Positions 404-64,000 of a stretch of 64,000 nucleotides of DNA are shown one piece after another. The translations under genes and the position numbers were made by a program. Source of the DNA: Microglena sp. YARC (lineage: Eukaryota; Chlorophyta; Chlorophyceae; Chlamydomonadales; Chlamydomonadaceae); the NCBI GenBank assembly GCA_022414725.1, contig CM039463.1:86257711-86321710 (forward strand), written 5' to 3'. The stretch's first letter is position 1. Each line of letters begins with the position of its first letter. The notes under the pieces are model-generated. The model made no database searches and was not told the origin of the DNA. It saw only the letters and a list, made by a program, of their open reading frames with translations.

Positions 404-3400
404 CTTGTAGTCATCCTTCAGCTTAGGGTACAGCTTGATCAGGTCGTACTCAATCATGTCTTGCATCTCTGCTGCCACTTCAACACCAGTGGGGCCGCCT
501 CCCACAATGACAAAAGAAAGCAGCTTCTTGCGCTCCTACATTTGGAGAACAGTCATAGTTTCAAACTGTATGTATGTATGTGTGTGTGTATATATGCATG
601 TATGAAAGTATGTATGTATGCATGTACATATGTATGTTACAGTCCAGGGGTGGGCCAAATAGGCCAAAGGGACTTGGCTAACCGTGACAGGAGGGGTTAA
701 AAAGAAAAGGCGTTGATAAACTGAACCCCAAACAATCGTTTTCCTGACGGGGACCCTGCGTTCGTTTGGGTACCACGCAATCAACATACAATTACAATAC
801 AATGACCAAACAACAAAGTCCCCCTTCAATTTGTCAGGCCGCGGGCACATTTGGAGCCCAGTAGGGCACCAGGGGGAAAAATGTAGTCATCATAGCGGAG
901 GTGCGCACGCATAGTTCTTCTTTTCAGCTACATGCAGCAGCTTCTAGGCAGCTCCCTGCGCCAGCCACTAGGCTAAGTCCCAAGATTTCGACAGTTCTGG
1001 ACAGCGGATCCTGCCAGCTTCCAGACACACTAGGTTGCGACAGCTGTGGCTGAATAGCCAACGAGGGGAGCTGCCTAGAAGCTGCTGCTTAGAGCTAAAA
1101 AGAAAAACACTGTGCGCACGTCATTCATAATCGTTATAATCATCATGGCCGTACTCATCATCGCCATGATGAAATATGTAAAAACAGTAATGATACCGCC
1201 TGGTAGGGCGTGGTATTGAGGGAGCCCCGTCTTTCTGCAGTACGGAACGGCCTGCTACTTTACCTGGACAAAGCTATCATGGCAGTTGGCAGTAACCGCG
1301 AACACTAAAGCACAAAATATATTAATTGTATTGAGAAAGCAGTTCCTTGAGCTCCTTTAGTTGGAGAGAACTGTCAGAGAGGAGGTGAGTATTACAATAT
1401 AAAGTGCATCATGCACCATGCCACATAATTGAGGTGCACTTAAGCCTCAGCCACATTACAACCTTCAACACTTTCTATATCTATCTGTCTATCTATCTAT
1501 ATAATTACATTTGTTTTAAAATATAATATTAGCATGCATCATGCCACATTCGCATTATTTTCTTTATGTTATTATTAATGTGCACTTCCAGCCTCAGACA
1601 CATCACAACACTACATATGTAAAACTTGTTTATCTATATCTATCTCTATATGTGTTTATAATATAAATATTATCATGCATCTTGCCGCATTCGCAATATT
1701 TTCTTCGTGTTATTATTAATGTGCACTTACAGCCTCAGACACATCACAACACTACATATATAAAGCTTATATATCTATATATACATGTGTTTATAATATA
1801 AATATTAGCATGCATCATGCCACATTCATATTCATATATTTGTATTATTATTAATGTGCACTTACAGCCTCAGGCACATCAGGGAGAGATGCCCTCTCAA
1901 AGCATTCAGTCAGTCGGCTGCGCAGCTTGTTGGCGTCCTCAATGGACTTGAAGAAAGTGCAGTAATCAGCCACACCCTTGATTCCAAAGGTGTTGTTCAC
2001 GCAGCCAACCTGTGTTGGACAAATGTGAAATGTGATGACAGAGAAGATAGATCGGCATCACACAGCCAAGCTGGGTGGGACACACGTGAAATGTGAAATG
2101 TAGGAAAACAGAAATTGCACTGCGAACCAGGCAAACAGGCGGAAAACAGGAAAACAGACAGATATACAGAAAACAGGCAAACAGACAAATTGCAGTAAAA
2201 CAGAAATTGCACTGCTAACCAAGCAAACAGGCAGAAAACTGGAAAACAGGCAGAAAGCAGGCAAATTGCAGGGAAACAGACATCAAACTGCAAACCAGGC
2301 AAACAGGTAGAAAACAGGAAACAAGCAGACAGACAGAAAACAGGCAAATAGGCAGAAAACAGGCTAATAGCAGGAAAACAGACATCGCACTGCGACCCAG
2401 GAATGTGCTCATAACTATGCTTGCAGCAGTGGCATCCGTTCATATAACACAGCACAGTCATCGGTCATAGTCTGCTGATGAGCTAAGGGCTGATATGGCC
2501 ATGACAGGCCATATCAGCCCTTAACTCATCAGCAGACTTTGGCTGTGAACTTAACAAGAGTCATGATTCAGGGGGCCCTCGTCCTTGCTGTCCTCTTGGG
2601 CCTCGGACCCCTCATTGTCCTTCCCCTCCTCGTATTCATCGCTGACATCGCTGACATCAATGTCATCATGTCATCAATGTCATTGATGAGTACAAGGACG
2701 GGAGGACAGCGAAGGATCCCAGGCAAGAGAATTGAGGTTTGGTGTTTAGGGTAAGGGATGTAGGCCTTAAGAGTAAGGGATGTAGATTGTGAATTTGGGG
2801 AGGGTGTCAACAACATGCTAAGTAAGAAAAAAAATGAAATGAAATTATATATCGAGCCATATAAATAAAATAAATGAAATGATGTATCCAGATATACATT
2901 AAAAATTATATATAACATTATCAAATGCACTCACTCCCATGATCAAATAAAAATAAATAAAATAAATAGATAAAATCATACATAATAGAATCAAATGTAC
3001 TCACTCCCATGATGAGAACATCGTAAGGCACTTTGAAGCATGCCTCAACAAAGCCGGTGTCCTTGGGGAAGCAGCACACGAGCTCCTTCTTGGTGGGATC
3101 GATGTCGCTGCAGATGGCCTCGTAGTAGTCAGCCTGCAAGCATGTGAACATGTGTAGGAATGTGTGCACACATGTGTAGTACAACTGCAGATGGCCTCGT
3201 AGTAGTCAGCCTGCAAGCAAGTGAACATGTGGAGGACTGCATGGAAACATGTGTACAACTGTGTTCCGTACATGCACGGAAGTAGAAATACGAAAACCAA
3301 GCATGCGACCAACCAACCAAGCACTCAACCAACCAAGCATGTAACCAAACAACCAAACAACCAAGCACACAAAACAACAAGGGCGCCCTTGTGTTGGATT

Positions 3401-5130
3401 GGACCAACTGGACCAAGGGATCCACTGGTGGCTAGGGATGGTAATGGGTAGGCCCGCTATAACCATGGAGGGGCGGTAACTAGGGTTGTTTGGTGTGCGG
3501 TGCGCGGTGTGTGTAACCTTGTTTCTGCCCTCGTGTTAGGTATGGGGATCCGCTGGGGATGGGGAGCTAGGGTTGTTTGGTGTGTGATTTGCGTAACCTT
3601 GTTGCTGTCCTCGTGGCTATTCTTGCGGAACGTGTGTCTCGTTTAACGCGCTTTGGTACACAGTTGCGCGTTACCTCATAAACTGGGGCTATGCACCCTC
3701 CGCCTGTGACCAGGCAGTCTCCTTCGGGATGACTTGACTGTCGAATCCCAACGTCAAGTGGTTCGGGACGCAGTTTGACTTAAATCTACCTGGAAGACGA
3801 GGTGACGTGACTGAAGATACATCTTGTCTGAAATTTGCTTCGAGTCGGAGAATGGTTGACTGTATTTACGAGTTTATCGAGCTGCCTGCCGTTTGCAAAC
3901 GTCAGTTGGTGCGGTCTAAATGCACTTTGTAGGGCGAACCCTTAGGTTCCCTAGCGCACCCGTTTGGCGCACCCGTTTGGCGCATCCGGCAGTACGGCTG
4001 TTGTACCGAAGTCGCTACCCATGGAGGGGCGGTAACCAAGCATGCAACCAACCAACCATCCAAGTGACCTCGCAACACACCTTGTTTCCGAGGAAGTTCC
4101 TGACGGGCTCGACGATGGATCGCTCCTCCATGGTTCCGGTAGCTACGGCAGGCAGTAGCGGAGTGTACAGGAAGTAGTTCCTTGGCGAGATGAGGATGAC
4201 CTCATACTTCTCACTGCATACGGTGGTGTGGGAGGTTGGAGCAGATGAGCGCATTCGAAACAAGGGTTGGTTGAGCTGATCGCTACCGGCTCATTCTGCA
4301 TGGGGTCTAAATTGCAGCTCGCACTAACACGTGACCGCATCAGTGTTTTTTCGTTGCTCTTGTTGTTTGCTACAGTCCAGGGGTGGCCAAATAGGCTATA
4401 CTATTTACATGATAACACAATATCCCATTGGTAGGGGACGCGTGTACACAGGCTACTGCAACTCGTGCGTGACGCCACTCTTGGCATGCGGGTGTATGGA
4501 GGTCCACCGCTGATGCGTACATGGCGGACGGCTGGAGCTTAGAGCTTCGCGGCTTACCTGACGTTTTTTGGCAGTGCCTTGATCAGACTCATCGCGGCCC
4601 AACCGGAACCCAGGACAACAACACGGGGCTTGCCGGTTCCAGTGCGCTTCATGTCGCTAGGGTCGAGCTCGGTGTACAAAGCCTCCTGCAGTAGGCAGCA
4701 GGGTACGAGGAGATTCAGGGACTGGTTGGGATTGGTAGGATGGAGTTCGGTGTGGGATGGTAAGGGTTGTCCGTTTGAGAGAAGGCAGGGATGGTGTGTG
4801 GGTGTGTGGGTGGGGGGGGGGCTCGGGTCTGTTAGCATGGGGTTCCATGGGTAGAGTTAATTGGGCTGCTGCGGGAAAATCAGTGGGGCACGCATGAGCA
4901 ATGACAATTTCACCATCGTCATTCAGCAGCACCAGGGATCCTCGGAAAATCCAACAACCGAATAATCGAATAATACTCGACTTGTATGCTAGGGATGGAA
5001 GGGTTTAGGAAGCTCTCACATCTTTGACAGCGACAGCAGCCCTAGGGCGCAAAGCAACGCGAGCATTCCTGGGCCTGCAGGCCACAGCGCTGCGAGCCTT
5101 GAGCTGGGAACTGAATCGTGTAGTCTGCAT
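404..5130 (-). CDS. Type II NAD(P)H dehydrogenase (NDH-2), 3' part outside window
   Basis: Single-subunit flavoprotein that oxidises NAD(P)H and reduces a quinone without pumping protons. Exons on the minus strand: 5130-5020, 4685-4558, 4213-4081, 3133-3005, 2009-1866, 535-404; all junctions are GT-AG and in phase. The ATG at 5130 opens a 37-residue Arg/Ala/Ser-rich, acid-poor leader ([20 protein letters not shown]...) that looks like a plastid or mitochondrial transit peptide. Exon 2 has the FAD-binding [10 protein letters not shown] motif and exon 3 the family block [19 protein letters not shown]. Exon 5 carries [13 protein letters not shown], and exon 6 the second dinucleotide motif [16 protein letters not shown]. 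The blocks resemble the plant NDA/NDB clade more than NDC1. About 229 residues are visible; the C-terminal half, including any EF-hand or membrane anchor, lies beyond base 1. The target organelle is inferred. Confidence 0.88.
637..770 (+). repeat. Dispersed repeat family A, copy 1
   Basis: About 135-bp repeat beginning ACAGTCCAGGGGTGGGCCAA and ending near GGGGACCCTGCGTTCGT. It lies in NDH-2 intron 5. At least 12 further copies occur in the window in both orientations. It has no inverted ends, which suggests a SINE-like or other short element rather than a MITE. Confidence 0.8.
910..1112. mobile_element. hAT-like MITE, family D, copy 1
   Basis: A 203-bp element with inverted ends (CATAGTT...TTTTCAGCTAC, then GCAGCAGCTTCTAGGCAGCT and its complement at the far side). 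It is flanked by a perfect 8-bp direct repeat TGCGCACG at 902-909 and 1113-1120. The 8-bp target duplication and the CA... ends suit a non-autonomous hAT element; it carries no transposase. Confidence 0.85.
1431..1885. repeat. Donor-edge array, NDH-2 exon 5
   Basis: Three copies (about 1431, 1578 and 1720) of the 3' edge of exon 5 plus its donor, spaced about 135-145 bp, precede the genuine junction at 1866. On the plus strand each reads like GTGCACTTACAGCCTCAG, the complement of CTGAGGCT|GTAAGTGCAC. The first copy has lost the donor consensus. Confidence 0.8.
2001..2400. repeat. Acceptor-edge copy of NDH-2 exon 5 and adjoining minisatellite
   Basis: The exon 5 acceptor region (2001-2040) recurs at about 2060-2100 (CAGCCAAGCTGGGTGGGACA). 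The following 300 bases are a degenerate array of units such as GGCAAACAGGCAGAAAACAG, in intron 4. Confidence 0.65.
2469..2538. repeat. Near-perfect 32-bp hairpin in NDH-2 intron 4
   Basis: Arms at 2469-2500 and 2507-2538 pair over 32 bp with one mismatch (G-U compatible in RNA) and a 6-base loop, ATGACA. The arm begins AGTCTGCTGATGAG. It could be a foldback element, a small-RNA precursor or a replication palindrome. There are no coding neighbours within the intron. Confidence 0.85.
3109..3216. repeat. Tandem duplication of NDH-2 exon 4 acceptor edge
   Basis: The sequence from CTGCAGATGGCCTCGTAGTA through AGTCAGCCTGCAAG occurs at 3109-3141 (real exon start plus acceptor) and again at 3184-3216, 75 bp apart. 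The second copy is a decoy acceptor with the first exon bases. Confidence 0.85.
3463..4036. repeat. 538-bp insertion flanked by 18-bp direct repeats
   Basis: The sequence CCATGGAGGGGCGGTAAC occurs at 3463-3480 and 4019-4036 around 538 bp of different composition, in NDH-2 intron 3. The insert has an internal duplication (CTAGGGTTGTTTGGTGTG near 3481 and 3566). Long direct repeats suggest a retroposon target duplication or a segmental duplication; no coding content is recognised. Confidence 0.55.
4371..4403 (+). repeat. Dispersed repeat family A, fragment
   Basis: Only the left end (ACAGTCCAGGGGTGGCCAAA) is present, in NDH-2 intron 2. Confidence 0.6.
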
Positions 5131-11600: not shown

Positions 11601-14600
11601 TTAGACGGCTCGTCATTCTAATATTAACTAACATTCACTCATATTATTCATTCACTAATATTAACTAAGTTAGCCTTTCCCAATATATGTGTGCCCTTTC
11701 TTCAGTTCTTGATTGTTTGAGGTTTGGCAGGTCTCTCCAGCCAATTGCCTGGCTAACCCTGGACTGTGGCATATGTTCTGTTATGATACTAGGGGGTGTC
11801 CGCCCTCTGCAGGTTGTGGCGTGGCGTGGCGAGGTGATGTTTGGCGTGGTGATGCTGGTGTGGTGTGGCGTGGTGTGCTGTGATGTGGTGCGATGTGACG
11901 TGGCGTGGCCTGCCCCCACCCATGAGTACTTCATACCTGATGAGTGGCAATACTTGGCTCCCTCCCCTCCTTCCCCTTCCTCCCTACCTCCTTCCCTCGA
12001 GCACCCTCCCCCTCCCTTCCCGACCCCCCTCCCACTACCCCTCAGCCCCCACCCATGAGTACTCCATACATGAGTGGCAATACTTGGCTACCTTCTCTCC
12101 CTCCTTCCCTCCAGCACCCTACCCCTCCCTCACCTCCCTCTCTCCAGCAACCTACCCCTCCCTCCCGCAACCCCCTCCTTCTCTAACCCCGGAGTACTCT
12201 ATACCTGAGGAGCGGCAATGCTTGGCTGCCTTCCCTCCCTACCCCCAACAGCCAGCCCTTCCCTCCTTCCCTCCAGCACCCTACCCCTCCCTCCCCTCCC
12301 TCTCTCCAGCAACCTACCCCTCCCTCCCTCCCCTCCCTCCAGCAACCTACCCCTCCCTCTCTAACACTGGAGTACTCTATGCCTGAGGAGTGGCAATCCT
12401 TGGCTACCTCCCCTCCCCACCCGCCTCCCCTCCTTCCCCTTCCTCCCTCCCTTCACTCCAGCAACCTACCCCTCCCTCCCTCCCTTCACTCCAGCAACCT
12501 ACCTCTCCATCTCTAACTCCGGAGTACTCTATACCTGAGGAGTGGCAATGCTTGGCTACCTCCCCTCCCCACCCGCCTCCCCTCCTTCTCCTTCCTCCCT
12601 CCCTTTCCTCCCTCCAGCACCTTACCTCTCCCTCTTTAACCCCGGAGTGCTCTATATCTGAGAAGTGGCAATGCTTGGCTACCTTCCCACCCTACCCCCA
12701 GCAACCAAACCTTCCCTCCATCACCATACCCCTCCCTCACCTCCCTCTCTCTCTCCAGCAACCTACCCCTCCCTCTCTTATCCCCCTCACCCCACCCCGG
12801 AGTACTATTTACCTGAGGAGTGGCAATGCTTGGCTTGGGCATGACTGCGAAGACAGCTGCAGCGTCCAGCTTTGTGCTTTGTTGGCGCAAGTAGTCTATG
12901 AAGCCTGTCGTTGAAAGAAAATAGGTTGTGGTGGTGTTATAGTGGTGGTGTGATTGGGTTGTGGTGGTGTTGTGGTGGTGGTGTTGGGTTAGTTTGGGTT
13001 GTTGGTGGGTTGTTGTTGGTGGTGGTGGAGTGGTGGTTGGATGGTGATGTGCACAAGGCCCCCAAGAATACACCGAATACACTAAATATACTGATACGCT
13101 TAACATATCTGATATATGCTATGCGCTTTGTATACCGTACTGCTCTCAAAATTTAACGGTTGCAAAATTTGACGTTTGGGGGGGGGGGGGGGGGGGTATT
13201 ATAAACTGACGGTTTACATTTTACGTTTTTTAATAGGAATATAAACTGACGTTACACATTTGACCGTTTCCATTTTAATAGAATCCATCTATGCAACTGA
13301 ACATTTGTACTTAATCATGTTACACTGGTTCATGGTTCATGGTACAATTTTAGGGTACACTGTTCTAGGAACTGCAAGGAGTGTACATATAATACTGCAA
13401 TGATCCCAACATCTTGTTCAGCATAACACTACCGGTACTCATTGAAATAACTAGAAGGAGACATTCAGTCGTTTCCATTAACTCCTGAAATCCTCTCTTG
13501 CTCAGTTAATGTCATAAGCATAAGCATAACGTATGTTCATGTGTTGCTCAGCGACCTAGAAGGGCCAAGGGTTGTGTGCCTTTCAATGGCCAGAAGCTTG
13601 TGAAAGGGCTCCCAGGTCACATACTTCTTCTTGTGGGGTCTAGTTTTGAGCTCAGACCCGTCTAGGAGGTAACCCAGCGTCAAAATGAAATTCACTGCCC
13701 TCTTAGTGAAAAACTTGCTGCTCGTCTTCGCAGAGGTAGTCGATGGCTTGCGAACGACAGCATCTCAAGCTTCGGCTGCAACTCGATTCACCTCTTTGTT
13801 GGTGACGATGATCTGCCCTGGCTCTACCCGGTCGAAAAACCCCACATGGTCCTTTGCTTCTTGTGAGTTCAAGCTATTAGAGGGCGTAAACGTCCCTCCG
13901 GGGATCTGTCGAGGGGCTGAGCCATGAAATGAGAAAGGCAGCCTTGTCGACCACTGCTGCGTTTTGTCCGGTCTGGAGGAGCCTAGGTTCGTTGCCGGTA
14001 GTAAGCCCTATCCAAGTCGAAGCCCTACCCAAGTAATATCGCACGTGATTTGAGGTTGACGGCTTTTTCGTTTCGTAATATACCGTACGCCCCGATTTGA
14101 CGGTTGCTCCCGTCAATTTAAACCGTTAAATTTTGAGAGCAGTACGGTATTTAGTACGTCAAATATATTGAATATGTAAGCTTATAATATGGAAGATATG
14201 CAATATGAAATACCATATAAAATAGTATAGCTTTTATGAGATACTAAGCATATGAAATATAACACATTATACATTCTCCTTAGTATATTAAATATAGCAC
14301 TTTATACATTCTACTTAGTATATTAAATATAGCACTTTATACATTCTACTTAGTATATTAAATATAGCACTTTATACATTCTACTTAGTATATTAAATAT
14401 AGCACTTTGTACATTCTACTTAGTATTTTAAATATAGCACTTTATACATTCTACTTAGTATATTAAATATAGCACTTTATACCTACTACTAAGTTTATAA
14501 GTATAAATATTTAGGGTGAGGAAAATACCTGATATATCTATATACATCTAAATAAGCAAACCTGAGTTTTGGCAAAGGGGCAAAGGGCACCTTAAAAAAA

Positions 14601-16258: not shown

Positions 16259-16303
<45 letters not shown>

Positions 16304-20960: not shown

Positions 20961-21011
<51 letters not shown>

Positions 21012-45920: not shown

Positions 45921-45952
<32 letters not shown>

Positions 45953-47534: not shown

Positions 47535-50500
47535 ATGCAGCTTCGAACTAGACCCTTGCTCTCGCCAGTCAGAGCCCAAACTCGGGGAAGCGCAGCTACC
47601 GTCACTCATCGCTCCGTCTCGATACCGGTAGCTCGGGCTATTCGTCCACACGCGGTGGGTGGGGATATGGTGGCGTGGGAAGGTTGTTACCGCCCTCAAT
47701 GTTGGACAGACTCGTTTTCGAACATGTGGAGCTCATGGGTTGGGCATAGAGTCATAGGGTCAATGGGGATGGGGGTGGGGGTTTTGAATGGGGATGGGGT
47801 TGGTCGTGGGGATGGGCATGGGGGGGATGGGGGAGTGGGGGGTTGTGGGGTGGATGCGGATGTGAATGGTGGGTTGGATGAGGATGGGTGTGTGGATGTT
47901 GATGTTGATGTGCAGGGTGTGGATGGGGATGGGTGTGTGAGTTTGGGGGGTGACCGCTACCGGTGGAAGGGGGGCATCGAATGAGTGAATAGAGTCAATG
48001 AAAGAGTTTCTGATGCACATTGTACTCTGATAACAATAACCTTTGTGCTGGTGGGTCGGCTGTGGTGAGGGCGGACTGGTAGGTAGGTGCAGTGTGTCTG
48101 GGGTGTAGTGTATCTGGAGTGGAGATGTAGGTGTAGTGTATCTGGAGTGTAGATGTAGGTGTAGTGGTGAGAAGGAGGAGGGGGAGGAGGATGGGGGGAG
48201 GGGGAGGTATTGGTGTAGGTGTGGGTCAAACACTTTTTGAAATATTATGAATACATGAATACATGAACCATGATCTGGCGCTGTGCAGGAGATGCCCATC
48301 ACTTGCCCTCGCATCCTAGTCTCATTTTGTGTACAGTACCAAATATTATGAATAAAATAAACAATGCTCTGATGCTGTGCTGGAGATGCCCATCACTCGC
48401 CGTTGCATCCTGGTCTCATTTTGTGTACGGTACCAAATACTATGAATACAAATAAACAATGCTCTGATGCTGTGCTGGAGATGCCCATCACTCGCCGTTG
48501 CATCCTGGTCTCATTTTGTGTACGGTACCTAATACTATGAATACAAATAAACAATGCTCTGATGTTGTGCTGGAGATGCCCATCACTCGCCGTTGCATCC
48601 TGGTCTCATTTTGTGTACGGTACCAAATACTATGAATACAAATAAACAATGCTCTGATGCTGTGCTGGAGATGCCCATCACTCGCCGTTGCATCCTGGTC
48701 TCATTTTGTGTACGGTACCAAATACTATGAATACAAATAAACAATGCTCTGATGCTGTGCTGGAGATGCCCATCACTCGCCGTTGCATCCTGGTCTCATT
48801 TTGTGTACGGTACCAAATACTATGAATACAAATAAACAATGCTCTGATGCTGTGCTGGAGATGCCCATCACTCGCCGTTGCATCCTGGTCTCATTTTGTG
48901 TACGGTACCAAATACTATGAATACAAGATAAACAATGCTCTGATGCTGTGCTGGAGATGCCCATCACTCGCCGTTGCATCCTGGTCTCATTTTGTGTACG
49001 GTACCAAATACTATGAATACAAATAAACAATGCTCTGATGCTGTGCTGGAGATGCCCATCACTCGCCGTTGCATCCTGGTCTCATTTTGTGTACGGTACC
49101 AAATACTATGAATACAAATAAACAATGCTCTGATGCTGTGCTGGAGATGCCCATCACTCGCCGTTGCATCCTGGTCTCATTTTGTGTACGGTACCAAATA
49201 CTATGAATACAAATAAACAATGCTCTGATGCTGTGCTGGGGATGCCCATCACTCGTCCTTGCATCCTGGTCTCATTTTATTGTTTAATATTATTTATAAC
49301 AAGTAAAGATAAACATGCTCTGATGCTGTGCTGGAAATGCTCATTACCCGTCCTTGAATACTGGTCTTATTTTGTTTTTCAAAACATTTAAATACAGTAC
49401 AATAAAATCTTGCTCTGATGCTGTACAGGAGAAGCCAATCACTCCTCCTTGCATCCTGTTGTCATTTGTTTTTTCAGCTATATGTTATACAATTATATAA
49501 AATAAAACTATGCTCTGATGCTGTGCAGGAGATGCACCACTCCCCCTTTCCATCCTGGTCTCATTTGTTTTTCAAATCTCATAAATACAAAAATGGAACA
49601 CTAACCATGCTCTGTTGCTGTGCAGGAGATGCCCATCACTCGCCCTTGCATCCTGGTCTCATTTTATGTTTCAAACAATATTGTTAAAGAGACATTTGTA
49701 AAATATACCATGCTCTGGTGCTGTGCAGGAGATGCCCATCACTCGCCCTTGCATCCTGGTCTCGTTTTATTTTTCAAACAATATTATTAAAGCGACATTT
49801 GTAAAATATACCATGCTCTGGTGCTGTGCAGGAGATGCCCATCACTCGCCCTTGCATCCTGGTCTCATTTTTGTTTTTCAAACAATTTTAATAATACCAA
49901 TAAAAAATAATGCGGTGCTGCTGTGCAGGAAATGCTCATCTCTCGTCCTTGCATCCTGGTCTCATTTTATTTTCAAATATTATTAATAAAACAAATAATT
50001 AACAATGCCCTGATGCTGTGCAGGATATGCCAATCACTCGTCCTTGCATCCTAGTCTCATTTTGTCTGCCTGAATATTATTAAAAACAAAACAAAAAACA
50101 AAAATTAATTGGCCATGCTTTGCTGCTGTGCAGCTGATGCCCATCACTCGCCCTTGCATCCTTGTCTAGTTTTTGTTTTTCAAATATCATTAAAAAAATA
50201 AAGAATCATAAAAAAGGCTCTGATGCTGTGCAGGACATGCCAATCACTCGCCCTAGCATCCTGGTTTCTAATGATGATGGCATTGACGCCCCTGGCCTCA
50301 GGGCCTTGGTTGCTAACCTTGTAAATGGAGATTTCGCTAACGTGAGTACCCACTCCTTCCCCTCCCCTCCCCCTCCCCCCTCCCCCTCCCCTCCCCCTCC
50401 CCCTCCCCCTCTCCTGCCCCCTCCCACCAGCTTCCCACGAACCACAGCCACCAACACTCCCCCTTCCCACAACCCACCGCCCTAGTCTCCAATGATGATG

Positions 50501-51523
50501 CCATTGACGCCCCTAGCCTCAGGGCCTTGCTTGACAACCTTGTAAATTCAGATTTCGCCGATGTGAGTACCCCCTCCCCCCCCCTTACCCTCCCCCTCCC
50601 CCTCCCACCAGCCTCCCACACACCACAGCCACCAACACTCCCCCCCTCCCCACCAGCCTTCCACCAATCACAGTCACCAGCAGTACCCACTCCCTCTCCC
50701 TCTCACCCTGCCCCTGCCCCATCCCCTCCCTCTTCCCGTTCCCGTTCCCCTTCCCCCTTCCCCTTCCCCCTTCCCCCTCCCCATTTCCCTCCCCCCTCCC
50801 CCGCTCCCCCTTCCCCCTTCCCCCTTCCCCTTCCCCTTCCCCTTCCCCTGTTCCCCTTCCCCTCCCCTTCCCCTTCCCCTCCCCTTCTTCTTCCCTTTTC
50901 TACTGAACCAACCAGCCTGACAGGTCTGCAGTCAGCCTGACAGGTCTGCGGTTCGTGCCCTTGCCAGGATCATAAATTTCACTTGACACCTTGAAAGAGG
51001 TAGAGACCTTCCCTCCATTCTGTCAAGGGCGCCAACCCCAGGCCTGTCAGGATGATGGTTTCTGTTGAACCAACCAGCCTGAGCTCGACTGGGCCTGACA
51101 ATATCCACTGTTAACACTTTTACCTGTACCGCAGACCTGTACCGCAGACCTGTACCGCAGACATGTACTGCAGACCTGTACCGTAGACCTGTACCGCAGA
51201 CCTGCACCCCAGACCTGTCGCAGAGCTTCTGTCCTCCCCCCCCTGGTGTTCATATGCGCAACACAGCCTGAATGACGTGACCTGTTGATACCTTCCTTCT
51301 GTTTCAGGTCTATCATAAATGATGTGTAGGGAACGGCGATGTGATATCATATGAATATATGATATCATGTCATCATCTGATATCATCCAGCAGTCTGACT
51401 TGGCTAAAGTTCCATTTATATACAATATAATATGATGCAATTTGTGTGATATCATATGATATCATTCTCACCTTTGCTCAACGTCATTTGATATGCTGGT
51501 CCCTAATGATGTGACCTGTTGAG

Positions 51524-51556
<33 letters not shown>

Positions 51557-51987
51557 TGGTATTCATCTACGCTATACAGCCTGAATGACGTGACCTGTTG
51601 ATCCCTCCCCCTGTTTCAGGTCTATCATGAATTATGTGTAGGGAACGGTGGTATGATATCATATGAAATCATCCAGCAGTCTGACAAGGCTAAAGTTACC
51701 ATTTATATATAATGGTGCAATTTGTCTGATATCGGACTCACCTCTGCTCAACATCTTATGATATGCCGTTCCCTAATGATGTGACCTGTTGATCCCTCCC
51801 CTGCGTCAGGTCTATGTGTCTGCCCCAACCGATGAACAATCGGCACAATCACATGCCATCACAGTTAGCAGGTAAGTTTTTTGTTGGTTAGTTAGTTAGC
51901 TAGTTAGTTAGTTAGTTAGTTAGTTAGTAATGTAGTTAGTTAGTTACAATCACATGCCATCACAGTTAGCAGGTAAGTTTTTTGTTG

Positions 51988-52021
<34 letters not shown>

Positions 52022-52206
52022 AATTTAGTTAGTTAGTAATGTAGTTAGTTAGTTACAATCACATGCCATCACAGTTAGCAGGTAAGTTTTTTGTTGGTTA
52101 GTTAGTTAGTTAGTTAGTTAGTAATTTAGTTAGTTAGTTACAATCACATGCCATCACAGTTAGCGGGTAAGTTTTTTGTTGGTTAGTTAGTTAGTTAGTT
52201 AGTCAT

Positions 52207-52237
<31 letters not shown>

Positions 52238-55200
52238 CAATCACAAGCCATCACAGTTAGCAGGTAAGTTGTTTGTAGTCTCACACGTTTGTTTGTTACC
52301 TGCTTTAGAAGGTAGGCAGATAGTCACTTAATTAATTGGTTAGTTAGTTAGTTAGTTAATAAGATAGATAGTGTGACAGCTCATCAATTATGTCTCGCAT
52401 AAAACCTCATCCTCCCCCCCACCCACCCACCCCACCCACCCCTCCTACCCATCCACCCATCCACCAACGTACCCACCCACTCACCCACCCACCTACCCAT
52501 CCACCCATCCACCAACCTACCCACCCACCCACCCACCCTCCTACCCATCCACCCATCCACCAACGTACCCACCCACCCACTCACCCACCCTCCTACCCAT
52601 CCACCCACCCTCCTACCCATCCACCCATCCACCAACCTACCCACCCACCCACCCCTCCTACCCATCCACCCATCCACCAACCTACCCACCCACCCACCCA
52701 CCCTCCCTACCCATCCACCCATCCACCAACCTACCCACCCACTCACCCACCCTCCTACCCATCCACCCATCCACCAACCTACCCACCCACTCACCCACCC
52801 TCCTACCCACCACCCATCCACCAACCTACCCACCCACCCACCCTCTGAGCAGGTACCTAACATGCGAGGCGCGAAGCATTGATGGCGTGGTTGCTGCCGT
52901 GGCAGTGGATGGCAGGCCTGCAGACAGCGTCATGATCGGCCTCTACTCACCTGCCCTTCCAGTGAGTTCACCCAAATTCAAAGTTTTAAATTCGATTTTT
53001 TGTAGTCGCTGCTGTGGCGGTGGATGCAGACCGCAGATAGAGTCATGGTCGGCCTCTACTCACCAGCCGTTCCAGTAATTTCATCCAAATTCAAATTTTG
53101 AATTCGCATTTGTGTAGTCGCTGCTGTGGCGGTGGATGGCAGGCCTCTAATCACCTGCCCTTCCAGTAAGTTCACCCAAATTCAAAGTTTTAAATCGAAT
53201 TTTTGTGGTTGCTGCTGTGGCGATGGTTGGCAGGCCCGCATATAGAGTCATGATAGGCCTCTGCTCACCTGCCCTTCCAGTAAGTCCATCCAAAAACAAA
53301 TTTTAAATTCAATTTTTTGTGTAGTCGCTGCTGTGGCGGTGGATGGCAGGCCCGCAGATAGCGTTACGACAGGCTTCTACTCACCTGCCCTTCCAGTAAG
53401 CTCATTCAAATTCAAATTCTTCAAATTTGTTGAATTTCAATTTGCATTCGGGTTCAAATTCAGATGCAAACGATATCTTCGCTTTCATTGAGTTGACCAG
53501 ATTCGGAGTTTTTGGAATTTAATGGACTGCACTTGCTTGAAAATCATTGTCTGGGTCTGGTGTGGGAGGCAGTTTTTTTGTGTGCAAGCGGTCACACATT
53601 GTGCGACGCGGTGCAACCCCCGTGCGACCCTCAGGTGTGCGAGTTTGGGGCGAAATGGGCCCATGGTCGCCACGAAGTGCGACCGCGAGTGAGTGATTTC
53701 TGCCCTGGGTTGCACCTGGAGCATTCCTGTAGCAGGGTACTGCATTGGGTCAATTTGTTCAGCCTCTTTTTTCGTAACTACCATTTTTGTAGCCTCTCTC
53801 GCGCAACTGCCTTTCAACTCCACCCTCCAACTCCACCCTCCAACTCCACCCTCCAACTCCACCCTCCAACCCCACCCTTACAACCCTCAGAACAACTCAA
53901 ACCACCCCTCTGACCAACTCCACCCTTTCAACTCCACCCTCCAACTCCCCACTTCCAACTCCACCCTCCAACCCCACCCTTCCAACCCTCAGACCAACTC
54001 GAACCACCCCTCAGACCAACTCCACCCTTTCAACTCCACCCTCCAACCCTGCCCTTCCAACCCTCAGACCAACTCGTACTAACCCTCAGTCCAACTCCCC
54101 CCTCCCAACTCCACCCTTTCAACTCCACCCTCCAATCCCACCCTTTCAACCCTCAGACCATCTCCACCCTTTCAACTCCACCCTCCAACCCCACCCTTCC
54201 AACCCTCAGATCAAATTGTACCAACCCTCAGACCAACTCCACCCTTTCAACTCCACCTTCAACCCCCACCCTTCCAACCCTCAGGCCAAATCGTACCAAC
54301 CCTCAGACCAACTCCACCTTTTCAATTCCACCCTCCAACCCCACCCTTCTAACCCTCAGACCAAATCGTACCAACCCCCAGACCAACTCCACCTTTTCAA
54401 CTCCACCCTCCAACTCCACCCTTCCACCTCGTACCAACCCTCAGAGGCTAAGACCAACTGCCCCCTTCCAACCACCAGACCAACTACCCCATTCCAACTC
54501 ATACCAACCCCCAGACCAACTCCATACCCCCAACTTATCCCTTAGACCAACTCCAGTACAAACCCCCAGACCAACTCTACTCCCTCAACTTGTCCCTGAG
54601 ACCAACACCTTTAATCTTGTGGTTGCTGGAATCAACCGAGGGGACAACTGTGGTCTACACGTGATTTACTCATCACAATCACTATCACTCCCCCCTCCAA
54701 CCCTCAGACCAACTTTAGTACCGACCCTAAGACGAACTCCACCCTGTCTATTTGCACCAACCCCCAGACCAACTCCACCCCCCCAACTTGTCCCCCAGAC
54801 CAACAAATTCGATCTTGTGGTTGCCGGAATCAACCGAGGGGACAACTGTGGCTTACATGTGATTTACTCAGGCACTGTTGGGGCTGCAAGAGAGGCTGCA
54901 TGTAAGGTGCGTGGGAAATGTTGTTATATTTATGGGCCTTGCCACAAGCGGCGGCAACTGTGGCTTACATGTGATTTACTCAGGCACCCTTGGGGCTGCA
55001 AGAGAGGCTGCATTTAAGGTGGTTGGGAAAGGTTGTTATATTTACGGGCCTTGCCACAAGCGGGGGCAACTGTGGCTTACATGTGATTTACTCAGGCACC
55101 CTTGGGGCTGCAAGAGAGGCTGCATGTAAGGTGCGTGGGAAATGTTGTTTGATTTACGGGCCTTGCCTCGCGTGGGGACAACTGTGGCTTACATGTGATT

Positions 55201-58200
55201 TACTCAGGCTCTGTTGGGGCGGCAAGAGAAGCTGCATGTAAGGTGCATGGCAACAAGATCAAATATTGTTTTGCTCGCATGGCTTTCAAAATATATTATC
55301 TTTTCTATGAGGAGGTAAACGCTGTTGAGCCTGTAAGAGAGGCAGCACGTAAATTTTCAAGTTTTAATTAAATTTTATGCAATTTTATGATTCTTAATGT
55401 AATGTTATTTTTAATTTAATTTAATTATTACTGTAATGTTGTTTTAAAAACAATTATAAGATGAATGCTGTTGAGGCTGTCAGAGAGGCAGCACGTAAAT
55501 GTTTAATGTTCAATTTAATTTATTTTTTACATTTTAATTTAATTTCCTTTTTTAATTTTGTATGAGATGAATGCTGTTGAGGCTGTCAGAGAGGCAGCAC
55601 GTAAATGGTTAATTTTAAATGAATTTAATGTAATGTTTACATTTAAATTTAATATATATTTTTATTTTGTATGAGATGATCAGATGAATGCTGTTGAGGC
55701 TGTCAGAGAGGCAGCACGTAAATTTCTCATTTAAAGCTTTCTTTTTTATTTTTATTTTAATCTCACAACAGCTCAAAATATTTTTTTATTATGAGATAAA
55801 CGCTGTTGAGGCTGTAAGAGAGGCAGCACGTAATCGTTCAATCCTGTAACATCCTCCTACAACACGCTCGTAGCATCACGGCACTAAAGCACCACATTAA
55901 CATTTAGGGCGCTTTGCATTTTCAATCAACACCACTTCACATGCCCTGCCATTAACCAAAACCAACCACTTCCTTTTCAATCAACACCACTTCACACTCC
56001 CTGCCATTAACCAAAACCAACCACTTCCTTTCAATCAACACCACTTCACACTCCCTGTCATTAACCAAAACCAACCACTTCGTTTTCAATCAACACCACT
56101 TCACACACCCTGTCATTAACCAAAACCAACCAATTCAGACGGTTGACTCAGATTCCTTACAGTTGCTTTTCATATTTCCAATACATATAATTTACCCTTA
56201 TGGGTTGAGGAAATAAGCACACATGCAGGCTTCATCATTGTCAGTACTTATATTTGCAAAAGTTGGGGGCCTGCTTGCTGGACATTGAGTCACTGCCCGA
56301 GAGGTCCAGCGATCTTTCAGATGGGGCCCCCATTGGTACAAGTGCTAGTAGACATATTTAAGGTGTATGCTGGGCCTTGTAAAGATTTAGCTTCGTGTAT
56401 GATATTTCCCTTAATTAGGGGGTATATCACGACACTGGCTGGCTTTACTGGTCTTATCAGCTTTTACCATTAAAAAAAGTCAACTGCACTATCTAGCTTG
56501 TAAGTCCAGACTGTTCAGGTCTGTCTTTGTGCTACTACCATATGCAAGAGTCGCTGCAATTTCACACACGTGCCCTCAGGATATAAAAATCAGTCCCACT
56601 AAGTAAAGGAAAGGAGTGTAAAGGGGGACTGGGGGAAAGGTGTAGGAGTAAGGAGCATGTACAGGACAGCAGGCTTGGCTAAGTGATGGGGTATCAAGAG
56701 AAAGAAAGAGGGGGGGGAAGCTAGGCTCAGAGGCTGGAGGCAAAGTTCAACTTGACCGAGAGGTCTGGGATCAGATATGCCTTAATGGCATCTGATTTCC
56801 ACCTACCTTGAGTTCTAATAGTCTCTAGATCTGCCCCATTAGCCCAAGCTGCTACTACGCCTCCCCGTCTGAGGCTGTGCAAGGCAAAGCTAGCTGGATC
56901 TATGTCCAGTTTGGGGTGAGAGTGTGCAATAGCAGTGAGAAAAGACTTCAGTCTATAGGACAAAGCCTGACCTGAAAGAAGGGGGGACTACACTGACAAA
57001 AGTAGAGCAATAAGCTCACTCCTCCTAAGGAGGTCAAAAAAACCCATCACTAGCCAAGCTGCATCTTTAGTAAACACGTCCTCCATGTGGGGCAGCAGGG
57101 TTTTCAGCTTCCTCATGGTCTCCAGACACACAAACATGAGGGACTTACAACACTGCCCTCTTTGCCACATGCAACTCCCTCAGGCCCTGGAACACCCTAA
57201 AGGCCTTAGAGATCTGTCCGCAAACACTGGAAACCAGAGTGCTAAGGGTCCAGTCCCTTGGGCCTGTGCCATTCAGCTAGTGCTGACATGGTTGTAATGG
57301 TGGCCGGTTGGTTATGACCTCCTGCCCAACCCATGACCAGCTTTAACTAGCATCAAAGGCACTTGTTCCTTGGGGCCAGGAGGGAGTGCATTCTGCTCAG
57401 TAAGCAAGTAACTTCAGCCATGCACTTGGTGTCGCTTAAGATCACTTGCATAAGTGTCTTGTGAGCTTCCGTACAGCCAAGGTAGAGCCTCCAACATCCC
57501 TAACTCCCTGGCCCTTGTTGGCCTTGGAAGCTAGTGATGTGGAGAGACACTCTTATAGTGTGCAGGCTGAGCACTTGAATGTACCACAGGACATGGCATT
57601 CCTGCCCAAGCTGATGCACTGGGGGTGGCTGTGCTGGCTGCAGCTGGTGCACCTAAGCATCCTTCCCTTGGTGCCTTGGTAGATGGTACATCCTATGGGG
57701 GGGTGGGAGGAAGATATGAAATGGGTAAGCTTCTGGGCAGGTCTGATCACAAGCAAAGTGTGTCAGTGGGTGAGGCCACCCAAGCATATAGGAGATCCAC
57801 AGTTTTTCCTAATGCCAATAATGGGATGTTATCATCCCTGATGCGTGTTATCCTGGAACCCCCCTTATACACAGCTGAAACAGCTTGGACCTTATCCATG
57901 TAGCACAAGACTGACGTTCCTGCCAGTCTATGTGCCCAGTGCTGCAAGCAAATCATGCAAGCTTCGAGTTCTAGGACACCTATTGTGCACATGTACCCCT
58001 ACCGACTCATGCCACTCCAGCTCCAGAGCCTTGTCCCAGACTCCAGGTCACTTAGTGTGCCCTTGTTAGATTTATTTAAAGTGTAGGCTGGACTTTGTAA
58101 CGTTTTAGCTCTTGTGTGTGATATTTCCCTAAATTAGGGGGTATATCACACCATTGGCTGGCCGTACTGGTCATATCAGCTATGTTACCATTTAAATATC

Positions 58201-61200
58201 TATGGGATTTAAGCCTGTGCCTTGTAAGTGGTATGGTAGGTGGTGACAGGGTATAGGGCATCAAACAAGAGTTGGATAGTGCAGGTATCCCCAAGGGTGT
58301 GACCTTTGGGGAAGAGCTATCCATCTACCTATTTTTTACCTGTCACAGGGTTGTTTCAGGGGTGGTGAGTGATCAAGGTAACTGGCTCATACAACCATTA
58401 CCCCAGTGAAGGAAGTGTCTACTAGAAACCTAGGACAAGGGACACCTAATTCATCTGCCCAGTATTGCCATCTCTCTATATTTAGCTTGGTTCCAGTTGA
58501 GTTGAGCCACTTTTCCCTGTCTTCCAAGTCATGGGGTTGGAACATCTCAACCATCAGTCTCCCACAAAGGGTTGTGATTTGAATGCAGCTATGAAACTGA
58601 GTGGGTACTGTAGGAAGACAAATTCTAGCACAAGCTGAACGACGCAAACTTCAAGGCGAGCAGGGCTGCTGTGCAAAGGCACTGGGCAGAAAAGGAAGGC
58701 AAAGAAGGAGAACGCGATGGTCGACTACGAGTCGCGGAGCAGAGGGGGAGAGGGAAGGAACTCAATACTCTCACCTTTCTTCTCGATCTGGCTGGGAGGG
58801 AATCTAGCGGCATAGGCGCTAGAGGATTGGAGGTCTTGGGGGCAACAGGAGCTATAGGAAAGGTCGATGAATGCAACTCCCGTTGCTCACTCATCTTGCG
58901 ATGGGTTGGGATTATGGTGTAGCTTTTGAGAGCGAGCCTTGATCGGAGGCCCGTGCGCCATCTTCGATCGTTTTGCGGGGACTGCGGGATGGAATCTCGA
59001 CGCAACTCGAAAAGTTGGTTAAGATCAAGGCTTAGCAACTTGTGGCACCAATATTTTAGTGCCCCCAGTGACTGTGCACTTGATTAAATACCGGGCAGGA
59101 CAGTACTGCTGTGAAAACACTGGCGGTGGTTACTCCTGGTTTTGCCCGGGGGTTTACGGGTATTTGAAATATGAAGGCGTCCTGCAGAATCTTACGTCGC
59201 GCGTCCGAATACTCCATTTCACCCACTACTGTGTGGGAAATGCGGCCTTTGTTTTCAATCAATGCCACTTCACACGCCCTGCCATTAACCAAAACCAACC
59301 ACTTCGTTTTCAATCAACACCATTTCACACGCCCTGCCATTAACCAAAACCAACCACTTTGTTTTCAATCAACACCACTTCCCATGTCCCACCCGTGTCG
59401 CAGGGTGTACCCGCTATTGCGTTTTCAATCGACAACCACCTGGCCAGGGAGCAAGAGGACTACACACAGGCAGCAGCGCTCTCGGTTTCCGTTGTCAAGG
59501 TAAGTCTGTGTGGGTGGTGGTTGTGGGCGGTGGTGGGTAACCATCTTCAACACACGCATGTATTTTCTCATTTATTACAGTCTGTCTTAGACAGGATCAG
59601 GGCAGCAGTAAAACAGATGGACGGTTACATATAAATATGATCTGCAAATATATAGGGAAGGGCAAATCATATGATGTTGACCAAAGACGAGAATGATATC
59701 ATATGATATCATACAAAAATCATATGATTTAATATCATATGATATGATGGCCCAGGCCAAAGTTACCTAGTCAGACCACGGGAATCATATGATATCATAT
59801 GATGAAATGATATCATATGATGTCATATTGCCGACCCCTACATATATATGTGTTCCAGCATTTATGTCTGATCAGGGGAGCAGTAAAACTTACAGATACT
59901 CCCAGCATATAGCGTTTGTGTGATACAAATTGTTACCAAGTTGAACAGCCAATCGACTGAGTAAATCTGGGTAGAAGAAAATTAAAAGCAAGTTGTTTGT
60001 TCAGCTCTCAACAGGCTGTCTTATGCATGCTCTGTATTTGTCACCTAATAAAATGGTTTTGCCTCAGATTGCAGTCTGTCTTCTCCTACAGCAAGTTGTT
60101 TGTTTTGCTGTCAACAGGCAGTCTTAGGCATGCTTTTTATTTGTAATAACATGAATACACAATTAATTCTCGTTGCCTCAGATTACAGTCTGTCTTATCC
60201 TACATCAAGTTGTTCGTTTTGCTCTCAACAGGAAGTCTTAGGCATGCTTTTTAATTGTAATTACAGGTAATTACAAAGAGTAGTTTTGCATCAGATTGCA
60301 GTCTGTTTTCTCCTACAGCAAATTGTTTGTTTAGCTTTCAACAGGCAGTCTAAGGCATCCTTTTTTAATTACAACAAATAGTTTTGCCTCAGATTGCAGT
60401 CTGTCTTCTCCCACAGCAAGTTGTTTGTTTTGCTCTCTACAGGCAGTCTTAGGCATGCTTTTATTTTTAATTGCATTAATAAACAATCAATGTAATGAAT
60501 ACATAATTAATAAATGTTGGCTCAGATTACATTCTGTCTTCTCCCACAGCAAGTTGTTTGTTTTGCTCTCTACTGGCAGTCTTAGGCATGCTTTTATTTT
60601 TAATTGCATTAATAAACAATCAATGTAATGAATACATAATTAATAAATGTTGGCTCAGATTACATTCTGTCTTCTCCCACAGCAAGTTGTTTGTTTTGCT
60701 CTCTACTGGCAGTCTTAGGCATGCTTTTATTTTTAATTGCATTAATAAACAATCAATGTAATGAATACATTATTAATAAATGTTGGCTCAGATTACGTTC
60801 TGTCTTCTTCCACAGCAAGTTGTTTGTTTTGCTCTCTACTGGCAGTCTTAGGCATGCTTTTATTTTTAATTGCATTAATAAACAATCAATGTAATGAATA
60901 CATTATTAATAAATGTTGGCTCAGATTTCAGTCTGCCTTCTCCTACAGCAAGTTGTTTGTTTTGCTCTCTACTGGCAGTCTTAGGCATGCTTTTATTTTT
61001 AATTGCATTAATAAACAATTAATGTAATGAATACATAATTAATAAATGTTGCCTCAGATTTCAGTCTGCCTTCTCCTACAGCAAGTTGTTTGTTTTGCTC
61101 TCAACATACAGTCTTAGGCATGCTTTTTATTCGTAATTGCGAGAAAACACAATTCATATAATGAAGACATAATTAATTAATTTTACTTCAGATTACAGTC

Positions 61201-61464
61201 TGTCTTACTGGATCAGGGCGACAGTAAAACATATGGATGATTCTAGCATATAGCCCATTATAGCGTTTTGCAGCCAATTTGAACAGCCAGTCGACCGACC
61301 GATGAAGTTTGGGTAGAAGAAAATTAAAAGTAGCTTGTTTGTTTTGCTCTCAACAGGCTATATTGGGCATGCTCCCCTCTCAAGCCTCCTCCTCTACAGC
61401 TGCTCCCCTTGGATTACTGAAGGGTGCTGTCCTGAACATTAACTTCCCAAGCCAGAAGTGCAAG
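47535..61464 (+). CDS. surE: SurE-type 5'/3'-nucleotidase, 3' end outside window
   Basis: Metal-dependent nucleoside-monophosphate phosphatase (stationary-phase survival protein E family). Exons: 47535-47654, 50234-50341, 51810-51871, 52853-52961, 54799-54906, 59404-59499, 59581-59607, 61357-61464; GT-AG, in phase, 246 residues so far. Exon 1 is a basic Ser/Thr/Arg leader (MQLRTRPLLSPVRAQTRGSA...), probably a transit peptide. Catalytic features are present: ILVSNDDG (metal-binding Asp pair), APTDEQSAQSHAIT (Ser), VDGRPADSV, AGINRGDNCGLHVIYSGTVG (Asn) and GVPAIAFS, then LKGAVLNINFPS. Exon 7 is a 27-base microexon, chosen because its GTAAAA donor keeps phase. A DIRS-like element sits antisense in intron 5. 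All introns carry junction-edge arrays. The remaining exons lie to the right of 64000; acceptor-like decoys of the next exon appear near 63525 and 63890. Confidence 0.92.
48260..50233. repeat. Acceptor-edge array, SurE exon 2 (about 20 decoys)
   Basis: Units of about 95-105 bp, GATGCTGTGCAGGAGATGCC then CATCACTCGCCCTTGCATCC TGGTCTC, end at the real exon 2. The block 48340-49260 is highly homogeneous and carries GTGCTGGAG (AG lost). Most more diverged copies from 49420 to 50233, and the first at 48285, keep CAG|G. Confidence 0.95.
50486..50562 (+). pseudogene. Duplicated pseudo-exon 2 of SurE
   Basis: A 77-base copy of the 3' part of exon 2 preceded by CTAG and followed by GTGAGTACC. It would read SNDDAIDAPSLRALLDNLVN: two catalytic-loop glycines are changed. 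Its length and phase do not fit exon 1 or exon 3, so use would shift the frame. Confidence 0.8.
51327..51505. mobile_element. hAT-like MITE, family C, copy
   Basis: A 179-bp element TAGGGAACGGCGATGTGATA to ATATGCTGGTCCCTA; perfect 8-bp target duplication ATGATGTG at 51319-51326 and 51506-51513. Confidence 0.85.
51639..51775. mobile_element. hAT-like MITE, family C, copy in second unit
   Basis: A 137-bp element TAGGGAACGGTGGTATGATA to ATATGCCGTTCCCTA; flanks ATTATGTG/ATGATGTG. It probably arose by duplication of the unit containing the copy at 51327, then internal deletion. Confidence 0.8.
51872..52280. repeat. Donor-edge array, SurE exon 3
   Basis: Four further copies of ACAATCACATGCCATCACAG then TTAGCAG|GTAAGTTTTTTG, each followed by (GTTA)n; the donor is intact in all of them. 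Confidence 0.9.
52410..52845. repeat. CCCACCCA repeat with CCATCCACCAACCTACCCAC units
   Basis: Pyrimidine/A-rich repeat that ends at the exon 4 acceptor and may serve as a very long pyrimidine tract. Confidence 0.9.
52995..53410. repeat. Donor-edge array, SurE exon 4
   Basis: Four copies of GTGGCGGTGGATGGCAGGCC and CTCACCTGCCCTTCCA|GTAAGT, about 105 bp apart. They are the exon end plus donor. Confidence 0.9.
53815..54600. repeat. Acceptor-edge array, SurE exon 5
   Basis: More than 12 repeats of CAACCCTCAGACCAACTC within CCAACTCCACCCT sequence. The real junction is CCCCCAG|ACCAACAAATTC, so each unit holds the acceptor plus the first six exon bases. Confidence 0.85.
54601..54690 (+). pseudogene. 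Copy of SurE exon 5 5' half
   Basis: GAG|ACCAACACCTTTAATCTTG... reads NTFNLVVAGINRGDNCGLHVIYS and stops matching after TTTACTCA. Intronic decoy, no donor. Confidence 0.8.
54907..55840. repeat. Donor-edge arrays, SurE exon 5
   Basis: Three copies of GGCTTACATGTGATTTACTC through GCATGTAAG|GTGCGTGG (54950-55250). Then five or so AT-rich units with GCTGTTGAGGCTGTCAGAGA and GGCAGCACGTAAAT (55315-55835), diverged from the same junction. Confidence 0.85.
55905..56135. repeat. SurE exon 6-edge array, left part
   Basis: Four units TTTTCAATCAACACCACTTC then ACACGCCCTGCCATTAACC, derived from the exon 6 segment GCGTTTTCAATCGACAACCACC. The array continues at 59248-59385 after the DIRS insertion. Confidence 0.85.
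56136..59247 (-). mobile_element. DIRS-like tyrosine-recombinase retroelement, decayed
   Basis: About 3.1 kb inserted inside the exon 6-edge array, antisense to SurE. In minus order: an unrecognised N-terminal region (58400-58910); an RNase H-like block at 57990-57750 (LELEACMICLQHWAHRLAG, MDKVQAV); a PHD-like zinc finger at 57720-57555 (CTSCSQHSHPQC); recombinase box I near 57010 (LLRRSELIALL); and box II at 56890-56750 (HSLRRGG, GRWKSDAIKAY). Reverse transcriptase is not seen. Internal direct repeats of about 122 bp lie at 56354-56474 and 58074-58196. Frames are split, so it is probably inactive. Confidence 0.75.
56727..56963 (-). pseudogene. Tyrosine recombinase C-terminal fragment
   Basis: Encodes ASFALHSLRRGGVVAAWANG (H-x-x-R) and TQGRWKSDAIKAYL with the nucleophile-position Tyr. 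Box I Arg is in the separate upstream frame (57170-56988). This is the C-terminal catalytic part of a DIRS/Ngaro/Crypton-type recombinase. Confidence 0.75.
59248..59385. repeat. SurE exon 6-edge array, right part
   Basis: Three units of the array at 55905-56135, running up to the real exon 6 acceptor at 59403. Confidence 0.85.
59653..59840. mobile_element. hAT-like MITE, family C, copy
   Basis: A 188-bp element TAGGGAAGGGCAAATCATAT to ATTGCCGACCCCTA with ATGATATCATATGAT cores; flanks CAAATATA/CATATATA (7/8). SurE intron 7. Confidence 0.8.
60000..61140. repeat. Acceptor-edge array, SurE exon 8
   Basis: About ten units of 95-135 bp with AGCAAGTTGTTTGTTTTGCT, CTCAACAGGCAGTCTTAGGC, copies of the real TTTTGCTCTCAACAG|GCTATATTGGGC. 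Units from 60558 to 61000 are nearly identical and read CTCTACTGGCAG (AG lost); the distal ones at 60110-60440 keep CAG. Confidence 0.9.
61190..61250. repeat. Copy of SurE microexon 7 and donor
   Basis: TTACAGTCTGTCTTACTGGA TCAGGGCGACAGTAAAAC duplicates exon 7 (59581-59607) with its GTAAAA donor; a further partial copy is at 59868-59890. Confidence 0.8.
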
Positions 61465-61611: not shown

Positions 61612-61665
61612 AGGGGGCTGTCCTGAACATTAACTTCACCAGCCAATGGTGCAAGGTGAGCTGAT
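61612..61665. repeat. Donor-edge copy of SurE exon 8
   Basis: GGGGGCTGTCCTGAACATTA ACTTCACCAGCC...GTGCAAG|GTGAGCT repeats the last 50 exon bases and donor at 61415-61470. Confidence 0.85.
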
Positions 61666-63712: not shown

Positions 63713-64000
63713 GGGGGAGGACTCGTGGGGCGCTCAAAGCTCATGGGACTAGCATAGTAGACTGGTTAGTTGGTGGTTGGCCCCAGTGCAAGCAAACAGG
63801 CTGCCCCCCTCAACCTCACGCCTTGTAAGGTAAGGCGCACTATTTATTTATTGACTCTCCTGACACCCTCAGTTTCCTTTCCCGCCAGGTCCCTCTGACA
63901 GCCTTTCACATGAAACTCAGTCAATCTCTTTCTCTTGCCTTTTCCAACTGTTGATATTTCGTCGTGCGAAAGCAATCAACCTAGATCCAAGACCATAGAA
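62715..64000. other. SurE intron 8: low complexity and acceptor decoys
   Basis: GGTGGTGTTGGTGATG repeats, G runs (63146-63169, 63664-63711) and two similar blocks CTCTCCTGACACCC...CCAG|GTCCCTCTGACAGCCT (63490-63545 and 63858-63915). These look like acceptor-edge decoys of the next SurE exon. The second could itself be an exon (VPLTAFHMK), but it soon hits a stop. Confidence 0.5.

Follow-up and report, generated by a model that had tools for sequence, protein, structure and literature searches.

Introner elements place one family at many sites, changing intron content genome-wide, and intronic minisatellites and VNTRs consist of tandem units with locus-dependent copy numbers and homogenised blocks. 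A 2007 PNAS paper reportedly described introns derived from tandem arrays. New introns are known to arise by tandem duplication (PMC3443670, PMC4974935), and human segmentally duplicated genes are described as carrying variable internal tandem repeats at exon-intron boundaries, with 27 intron modifications after manual inspection, some of the repeats activating cryptic sites and yielding new introns, often with an alternative transcript (PMC2812944). The original prediction for the stretch analysed here was that arrays built on copies of splice junctions inflate most introns of its five genes, and that no account of such a thing as a genome-wide pattern was known; our search of open-licence literature likewise turned up no paper that describes exon-edge arrays as a feature of a whole genome.

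The window, by which we mean the whole 64-kb stretch of DNA that was analysed, lies on contig C2 of a Microglena assembly of 568,105,699 bp in 2,390 contigs, and we modelled five genes with 28 exons in it:

34261..47140, minus strand: methionyl-tRNA formyltransferase gene (FMT), exons 47140-47012, 45899-45837, 43674-43540, 40859-40723, 39584-39467, 38546-38388, 36077-35954, 35606-35455 and 34350-34261
50234..61464, plus strand: SurE exons 2-7, at 50234-50341, 51810-51871, 52853-52961, 54799-54906, 59404-59499 and 61357-61464; the model starts at exon 2
12813..22298, minus strand: TPR gene, five exons, at 22298-22156, 20572-20428, 19389-19138, 17782-17689 and 12904-12813; it may continue
1866..5130, minus strand: Pyr_redox_2 gene, which we take to be type II NADH dehydrogenase-like, exons 5130-5020, 4685-4558, 4213-4081, 3133-3005 and 2009-1866; it continues
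22921..28374, plus strand: gene of the same-species EukProt protein P0121, exons 22921-23538, 24731-24953 and 28049-28374

We placed the exons by open joined frames and GT-AG ends, by Pfam matches in four genes (Formyl_trans_N 1e-37, SurE 4.2e-49, TPR_2 9.8e-16, Pyr_redox_2 8.5e-14) and, in three genes, by homologues or a protein of the same species; with the fifth gene the EukProt prediction P0121 agrees exon by exon. FMT was traced to its stop codon, a TGA at 34261-34263, and the 5' end of its exon 1 was set by hand, while the last two SurE exons and the stop lie outside the window, at 64201-64358 and 66638-66860 in window numbering (stretch L010). Protein comparison places the window in a chlorophyte green alga, with the SurE and FMT products nearest to Volvox and Chlamydomonas proteins among the best 120 matches listed for each, those for FMT coming from the 7,998 scored candidates with the most shared words. 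Cymbomonas, another green alga considered as the source, was set aside on account of its published mean intron length of ~297 bp (PMC5741210).

When the 40-nt coding edge at each junction of the five genes was aligned with its own intron, 22 of 50 junctions (9/24 acceptors and 13/26 donors) scored above all 500 dinucleotide shuffles, against 1/26 mid-exon probes and 0/50 reverse-strand probes. An earlier run with 200 shuffles gave two positive mid-exon probes, in P0121 exon 2 and FMT exon 4, both sites where the units extend far into the exon. The original prediction spoke of about 25 boundaries, and counts made on 44 junctions, before FMT exons 7-9 had been discovered, agree with it: a copy extends 6 nt or more to either side of the junction at 23/44 boundaries, an exon-edge copy is present at 25/44, and looser local alignment recovers 116 junction-crossing copies, including low-scoring ones in a CCCA repeat at P0121 exon 3, at 27/44. 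The copies overlap the exon by 6 to 110 bases and are mostly 70-95% identical with private changes. Alignment, or inspection by eye where stated, gave the following features:

40127..40696, minus strand: FMT exon 4 donor array, 11 copies (local alignment)
40946..41497, minus strand: FMT exon 4 acceptor array, 5 copies, all retaining AG
42376..43387, minus strand: FMT exon 3 donor array, 7 copies of a ~151-bp unit
39120..39308, minus strand: FMT exon 5 donor, 2 copies
38636..38831, minus strand: FMT exon 6 acceptor, 2 copies
37000..37620, minus strand: FMT exon 6 donor, diverged copies seen by eye, in a family that the script calls junction-crossing
33673..34250, minus strand: FMT coding end and the region of its stop, copied in tandem 3' of the stop, with 75-bp units at 33669-33897
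48257..50165, plus strand: SurE exon 2 acceptor array, 20 copies
50523..50599, plus strand: SurE exon 2 donor copy
51271..51625, plus strand: SurE exon 3 acceptor, 2 copies with only 6 exon nt apiece
51946..52276, plus strand: SurE exon 3 donor, 4 copies
53035..53427, plus strand: SurE exon 4 donor, 4 copies
54511..54640, plus strand: SurE exon 5 acceptor, 2 copies
54979..55840, plus strand: SurE exon 5 donor array, in which the script finds 3 clear copies and the eye further, diverged ones
59980..61124, plus strand: SurE exon 7 acceptor array, 10 copies
61617..61662, plus strand: SurE exon 7 donor copy
19501..19854, minus strand: TPR exon 3 acceptor array, 6 copies of a 61-bp unit
18663..18992, minus strand: TPR exon 3 donor array, 3 copies
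20706..20942, minus strand: TPR exon 2 acceptor, 2 copies
18025..18531, minus strand: TPR exon 4 acceptor array, 4 diverged copies that each include 10 nt of exon
17467..17505, minus strand: TPR exon 4 donor copy
11909..12680, minus strand: TPR exon 5 donor array, 6 copies
1425..1746, minus strand: NADH dehydrogenase-like exon 5 donor array, 3 copies of a 141-bp unit
3185..3239, minus strand: NADH dehydrogenase-like exon 4 acceptor copy
2902..2943, minus strand: NADH dehydrogenase-like exon 4 donor copy with 9 nt of exon
2058..2096, minus strand: NADH dehydrogenase-like exon 5 acceptor copy with 13 nt of exon
25137..26450, plus strand: P0121 exon 2 donor copies, at 25137-25205, 26230-26301 and 26399-26450
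27892..27965, plus strand: P0121 exon 3 acceptor copy, with weaker upstream copies in the CCCA repeat

The examples named beforehand (both sides of TPR exon 3 and of FMT exon 4, and the SurE exon 2 acceptor) are all among these. Two of the FMT exon 4 donor copies equal the real site across all 56 aligned bases (21 exon, GT, 33 intron), and in the SurE exon 2 array TG replaces AG in one neighbouring copy and throughout a block of ten near-identical copies, a block that points to local homogenisation. The FMT exon 6 donor edge is marginal, with a score of 28 against a shuffle maximum of 27, and at the TPR exon 4 acceptor the exon-only edge test detects no copies.

Other repeats share this DNA. 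An array beside FMT exon 2, at 44311..45794 on the minus strand in intron 2, was considered as an exon copy and rejected; it is a minisatellite of 27 copies of the terminal repeat of a dispersed inverted-repeat element, a MITE-like sequence of ~150 bp with inverted ends CAGCAGCTTCTAGGCAGCTCC that occurs at 935-1087, 24259-24409 and 39759-39901 and, by eye, at L010:2890-3075. AT-rich palindromic stretches with CATATGATATCA-like repeats were seen by eye at 46500-46760 (FMT intron 1), 51310-51750 (SurE intron 2) and L010:3130-3310, and a G-rich 46-bp minisatellite of ~16 copies occupies 25447-26158, close to the exon 2 donor within the intron of P0121. Away from the modelled genes, 30536-30953 consists of 151-bp tandem units with open frames and no known gene, and 32033-32914 holds a 294-aa open frame that lacks a Pfam match and has a C..C...H....C pattern reminiscent of the zinc fingers of retroelements.

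How much of the introns is array was counted over repeat families covering at least 50 bp. Of 46 junctions, 22 lie inside an array and 24 are not crossed, and among the 38,080 bases of the 23 complete introns 9,520 fall in junction-containing arrays and 7,287 in others. Five of these introns have no array family (334, 344, 347, 1,104 and 1,112 bp), the three shorter than 350 bp being array-free, so that the claim of inflation in most introns is fair without extending to all of them. Intron length follows array bases closely (Spearman 0.83, 23 introns). The units lie head to tail and fall within the size range of minisatellites and other tandem arrays (~10 to a few hundred bp), and, as the original prediction held, they do not form one transposon family: unit sequences are unrelated between junctions, and direct repeats within 2 kb make up 48.7% of intron bases in the window against 1.9% for those more than 6 kb apart. 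Repeat coverage is flat, at ~0.5-0.7, across 400 nt of intron, and in the exon falls to 0-0.06 beyond 80 nt.

Exon-edge copying is real and recurs beyond the window. A search for the CCT chaperonin family gave 64 exon matches, of which we used 31, at five loci on contigs C1, C2, C3 and C5 where several exons lie near one another, the genes of two loci (L033 and L034) being close paralogues. With exon limits taken as the limits of the profile matches, some of which extend into the intron, rather than as checked splice sites, 21/50 CCT edges scored above all 500 shuffles, against 4/47 mid-exon and 1/50 reverse-strand probes. Dropping a sixth match of L033, itself a copy, left 21/48 edges above all 300 shuffles, with 17/48 and 15/48 for probes shifted inward by 15 and 30 nt. 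One locus (L032) has ~5 acceptor copies with long coding parts, and L033 has ~6 donor copies as well as one long copy of a CCT exon. Outside the window, both edges of SurE exon 8 are copied (scores 43 and 55, 0/1,000 shuffles each), and the SurE exon 9 acceptor has no copies. Tandem repeats are also common well beyond the introns of the window: in twenty 10-kb stretches taken at round-number positions, mean tandem coverage outside simple repeats is 40%, single stretches ranging from 0 to 100%. Three of the twenty (L011, L022 and L030) are nearly all tandem repeat, with coverage of 0.97-1.00. The mean coverage weakened an early idea of ours that the arrays are specific to introns. Within the window, tandem coverage is 56% in introns and 18% in the sequence beyond the gene spans known at that stage, which later proved to contain FMT exons 7-9 and their introns; a general duplication process does not predict this difference, which counts against the explanation we prefer.

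The original prediction took the process to be general and to act across splice sites, possibly at R-loops. A slippage-like tandem duplication that recurs elsewhere does fit, but the tie to splice sites or R-loops finds no support. Coding ends are copied at two of the three stops tested: the FMT coding end, together with the region of the stop, is repeated several times 3' of the stop (score 66, 0/500 shuffles), the SurE coding end is copied downstream (score 42, 0/1,000 shuffles), and the P0121 stop has no copies. None of three starts tested has copies; those over a start would add upstream ATGs and may be harmful. Nor is there a preferred offset, the ratio of exon overlap to unit length running from 0.03 to 0.71 over 21 crossings, and array families that cross junctions (22) are matched by families that do not (21), with identities of 83.4 and 83.1% (P=0.50). 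Copying of stop codons, free offsets and non-junction families as numerous and as diverged together indicate that the copying is not specific to splicing.

These observations bear on the proposal that splice sites are duplication hot spots, through R-loops, co-transcriptional splicing or pre-mRNA-templated repair. What speaks for it is the number of crossings, since the 22 of 46 found are far above random placement in the present introns (about 5.5 +- 2.0 expected, maximum 14 in 20,000 trials) and above placement of single units in present introns stripped of their arrays (10.9 +- 2.2 expected, maximum 20 in 20,000 trials; the unit simulations used units of up to 500 bp). Because arrays lengthen introns, however, we simulated founding in shorter introns rather than present ones, the ancestral length being an assumption. 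In six core-Reinhardtinia species the median intron length is 198-343 bp, with 229 bp in C. reinhardtii (PMC8226300), and single founding units in 229-bp introns yield 19.8 +- 2.2 expected crossings against the 22 observed (P=0.22), with P=0.043 at 300 bp and P=0.004 at 400 bp. Arrays containing one conserved member should, we infer, also stay detectable for longer, and with crossings that fit 229-bp founding introns a junction-directed process is not needed. Our early idea that anchoring proves junction targeting was weakened by these founding-length simulations, and we consider direction by the junction unlikely, although a modest preference of duplication for junctions or coding edges is possible.

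That the copies are real alternative or tandem exons under selection has only a slim chance of being correct. Most copies keep the frame, raw mismatches lean to third codon positions (176/109/274 by position), and the EukProt FMT prediction P0126 joins three copies as coding. The raw spectrum, however, is superseded by one that splits shared from private changes, in which copy-private changes are near even (63/44/68, P=0.058) and the sites at which the exon stands apart from the majority of copies are not (20/10/34, P=0.001), which suggests a constrained exon and near-neutral copies; as the difference between these two spectra is not significant (P=0.11) and single-copy mismatches, left unpolarised, stand at 25/24/39 (P=0.088), weak constraint on the copies is possible. 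In-frame stops occur in 9 of 96 copies examined and net frameshifts in 17, and copies in the window contain one exon edge, reaching at most 110 nt into the exon, rather than a whole exon. In the FMT and SurE relatives that we inspected each segment is present once and not repeated. P0121 uses the outermost sites and skips the copies. Both proteins, P0121 as well as P0126, are predictions; at its start P0126 has three junction copies fused together, and it is missing exons 1-3. Selection for extra splice sites or longer introns, as decoys, back-up sites or regulation, seems very improbable to us: at 7/14 donors with copies at least one copy, by eye, has the identical 9-nt donor site, but GT or AG is retained in 82/116 copies where ~87 are expected from flank identity (46.1 acceptors, 40.5 donors), and loss at about the flank rate counts against retention for function. 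An assembly artefact is hardly credible. Tandem repeats are error-prone and we worked from a single assembly, but the copies, mostly 70-95% identical with private changes, differ at each locus and occur in all five window genes and all five CCT loci.

We therefore think it likely that the arrays reflect pervasive short tandem duplication, tolerated at coding edges and followed by minisatellite growth. Slippage or unequal exchange would frequently duplicate units of mostly ~50-250 bp at arbitrary positions; duplications within coding sequence would be purged, and those running from non-coding DNA across a coding edge would be tolerated, since the outermost copy (the 5'-most donor, the 3'-most acceptor or the first stop codon) would still give a normal mRNA and protein. 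The extra copies would then drift near-neutrally and turn into minisatellites, and introns would swell as a result. Anchoring to splice sites would be only apparent, for two reasons: introns were presumably once short, a few hundred bp, so that many duplications of 100 bp would have run over a boundary, and arrays that include part of a conserved exon would stay recognisable for longer. Correct splicing at the outermost site would probably be accounted for by exon definition: with two FMT exon 4 donors identical over 56 bases, nearby sequence alone is insufficient, and the choice must be made by position or wider context. A stronger version, in which tandem duplication in this lineage favours coding edges, at exon ends and stop codons alike, exon-edge satellites are a main source of intron and genome growth, and the spliceosome reliably picks the outermost of up to 20 near-identical sites by position alone, strikes us as doubtful.

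If general in this 568-Mb genome, the pattern would be a visible, transposon-free route of intron growth. It would also measure directly which duplications at gene edges are tolerated by selection, and would amount to a natural experiment in choosing among near-identical splice sites, as at the FMT exon 4 donors. Exon-edge copies also corrupt gene annotation; P0126, which opens with copies, was misled by them, and annotation of the Microglena genome therefore needs caution.

Compared with known systems, the arrays share the traits of intronic minisatellites and VNTRs, but here the units contain a coding edge and splice site, and in many genes. Like introner elements they alter intron content, whereas each junction in the window has a separate sequence rather than a shared one. 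They resemble intron gain by tandem duplication in that the duplication touches exons and splice signals and is hidden by splicing (PMC3443670, PMC4974935); they differ in that existing introns seem to grow, and in that the potato case there is a single duplication of intron-exon structure where we find arrays of up to 20. The human boundary repeats are alike in that a minisatellite includes the exon-intron boundary and alters introns, as at 22/46 junctions here, and unlike in belonging to recently duplicated paralogues, whereas the genes here are ordinary ones with no evidence of new introns (PMC2812944). With boundary minisatellites and intron gain already known, what differs here is the extent, about half of tested junctions in ordinary genes.
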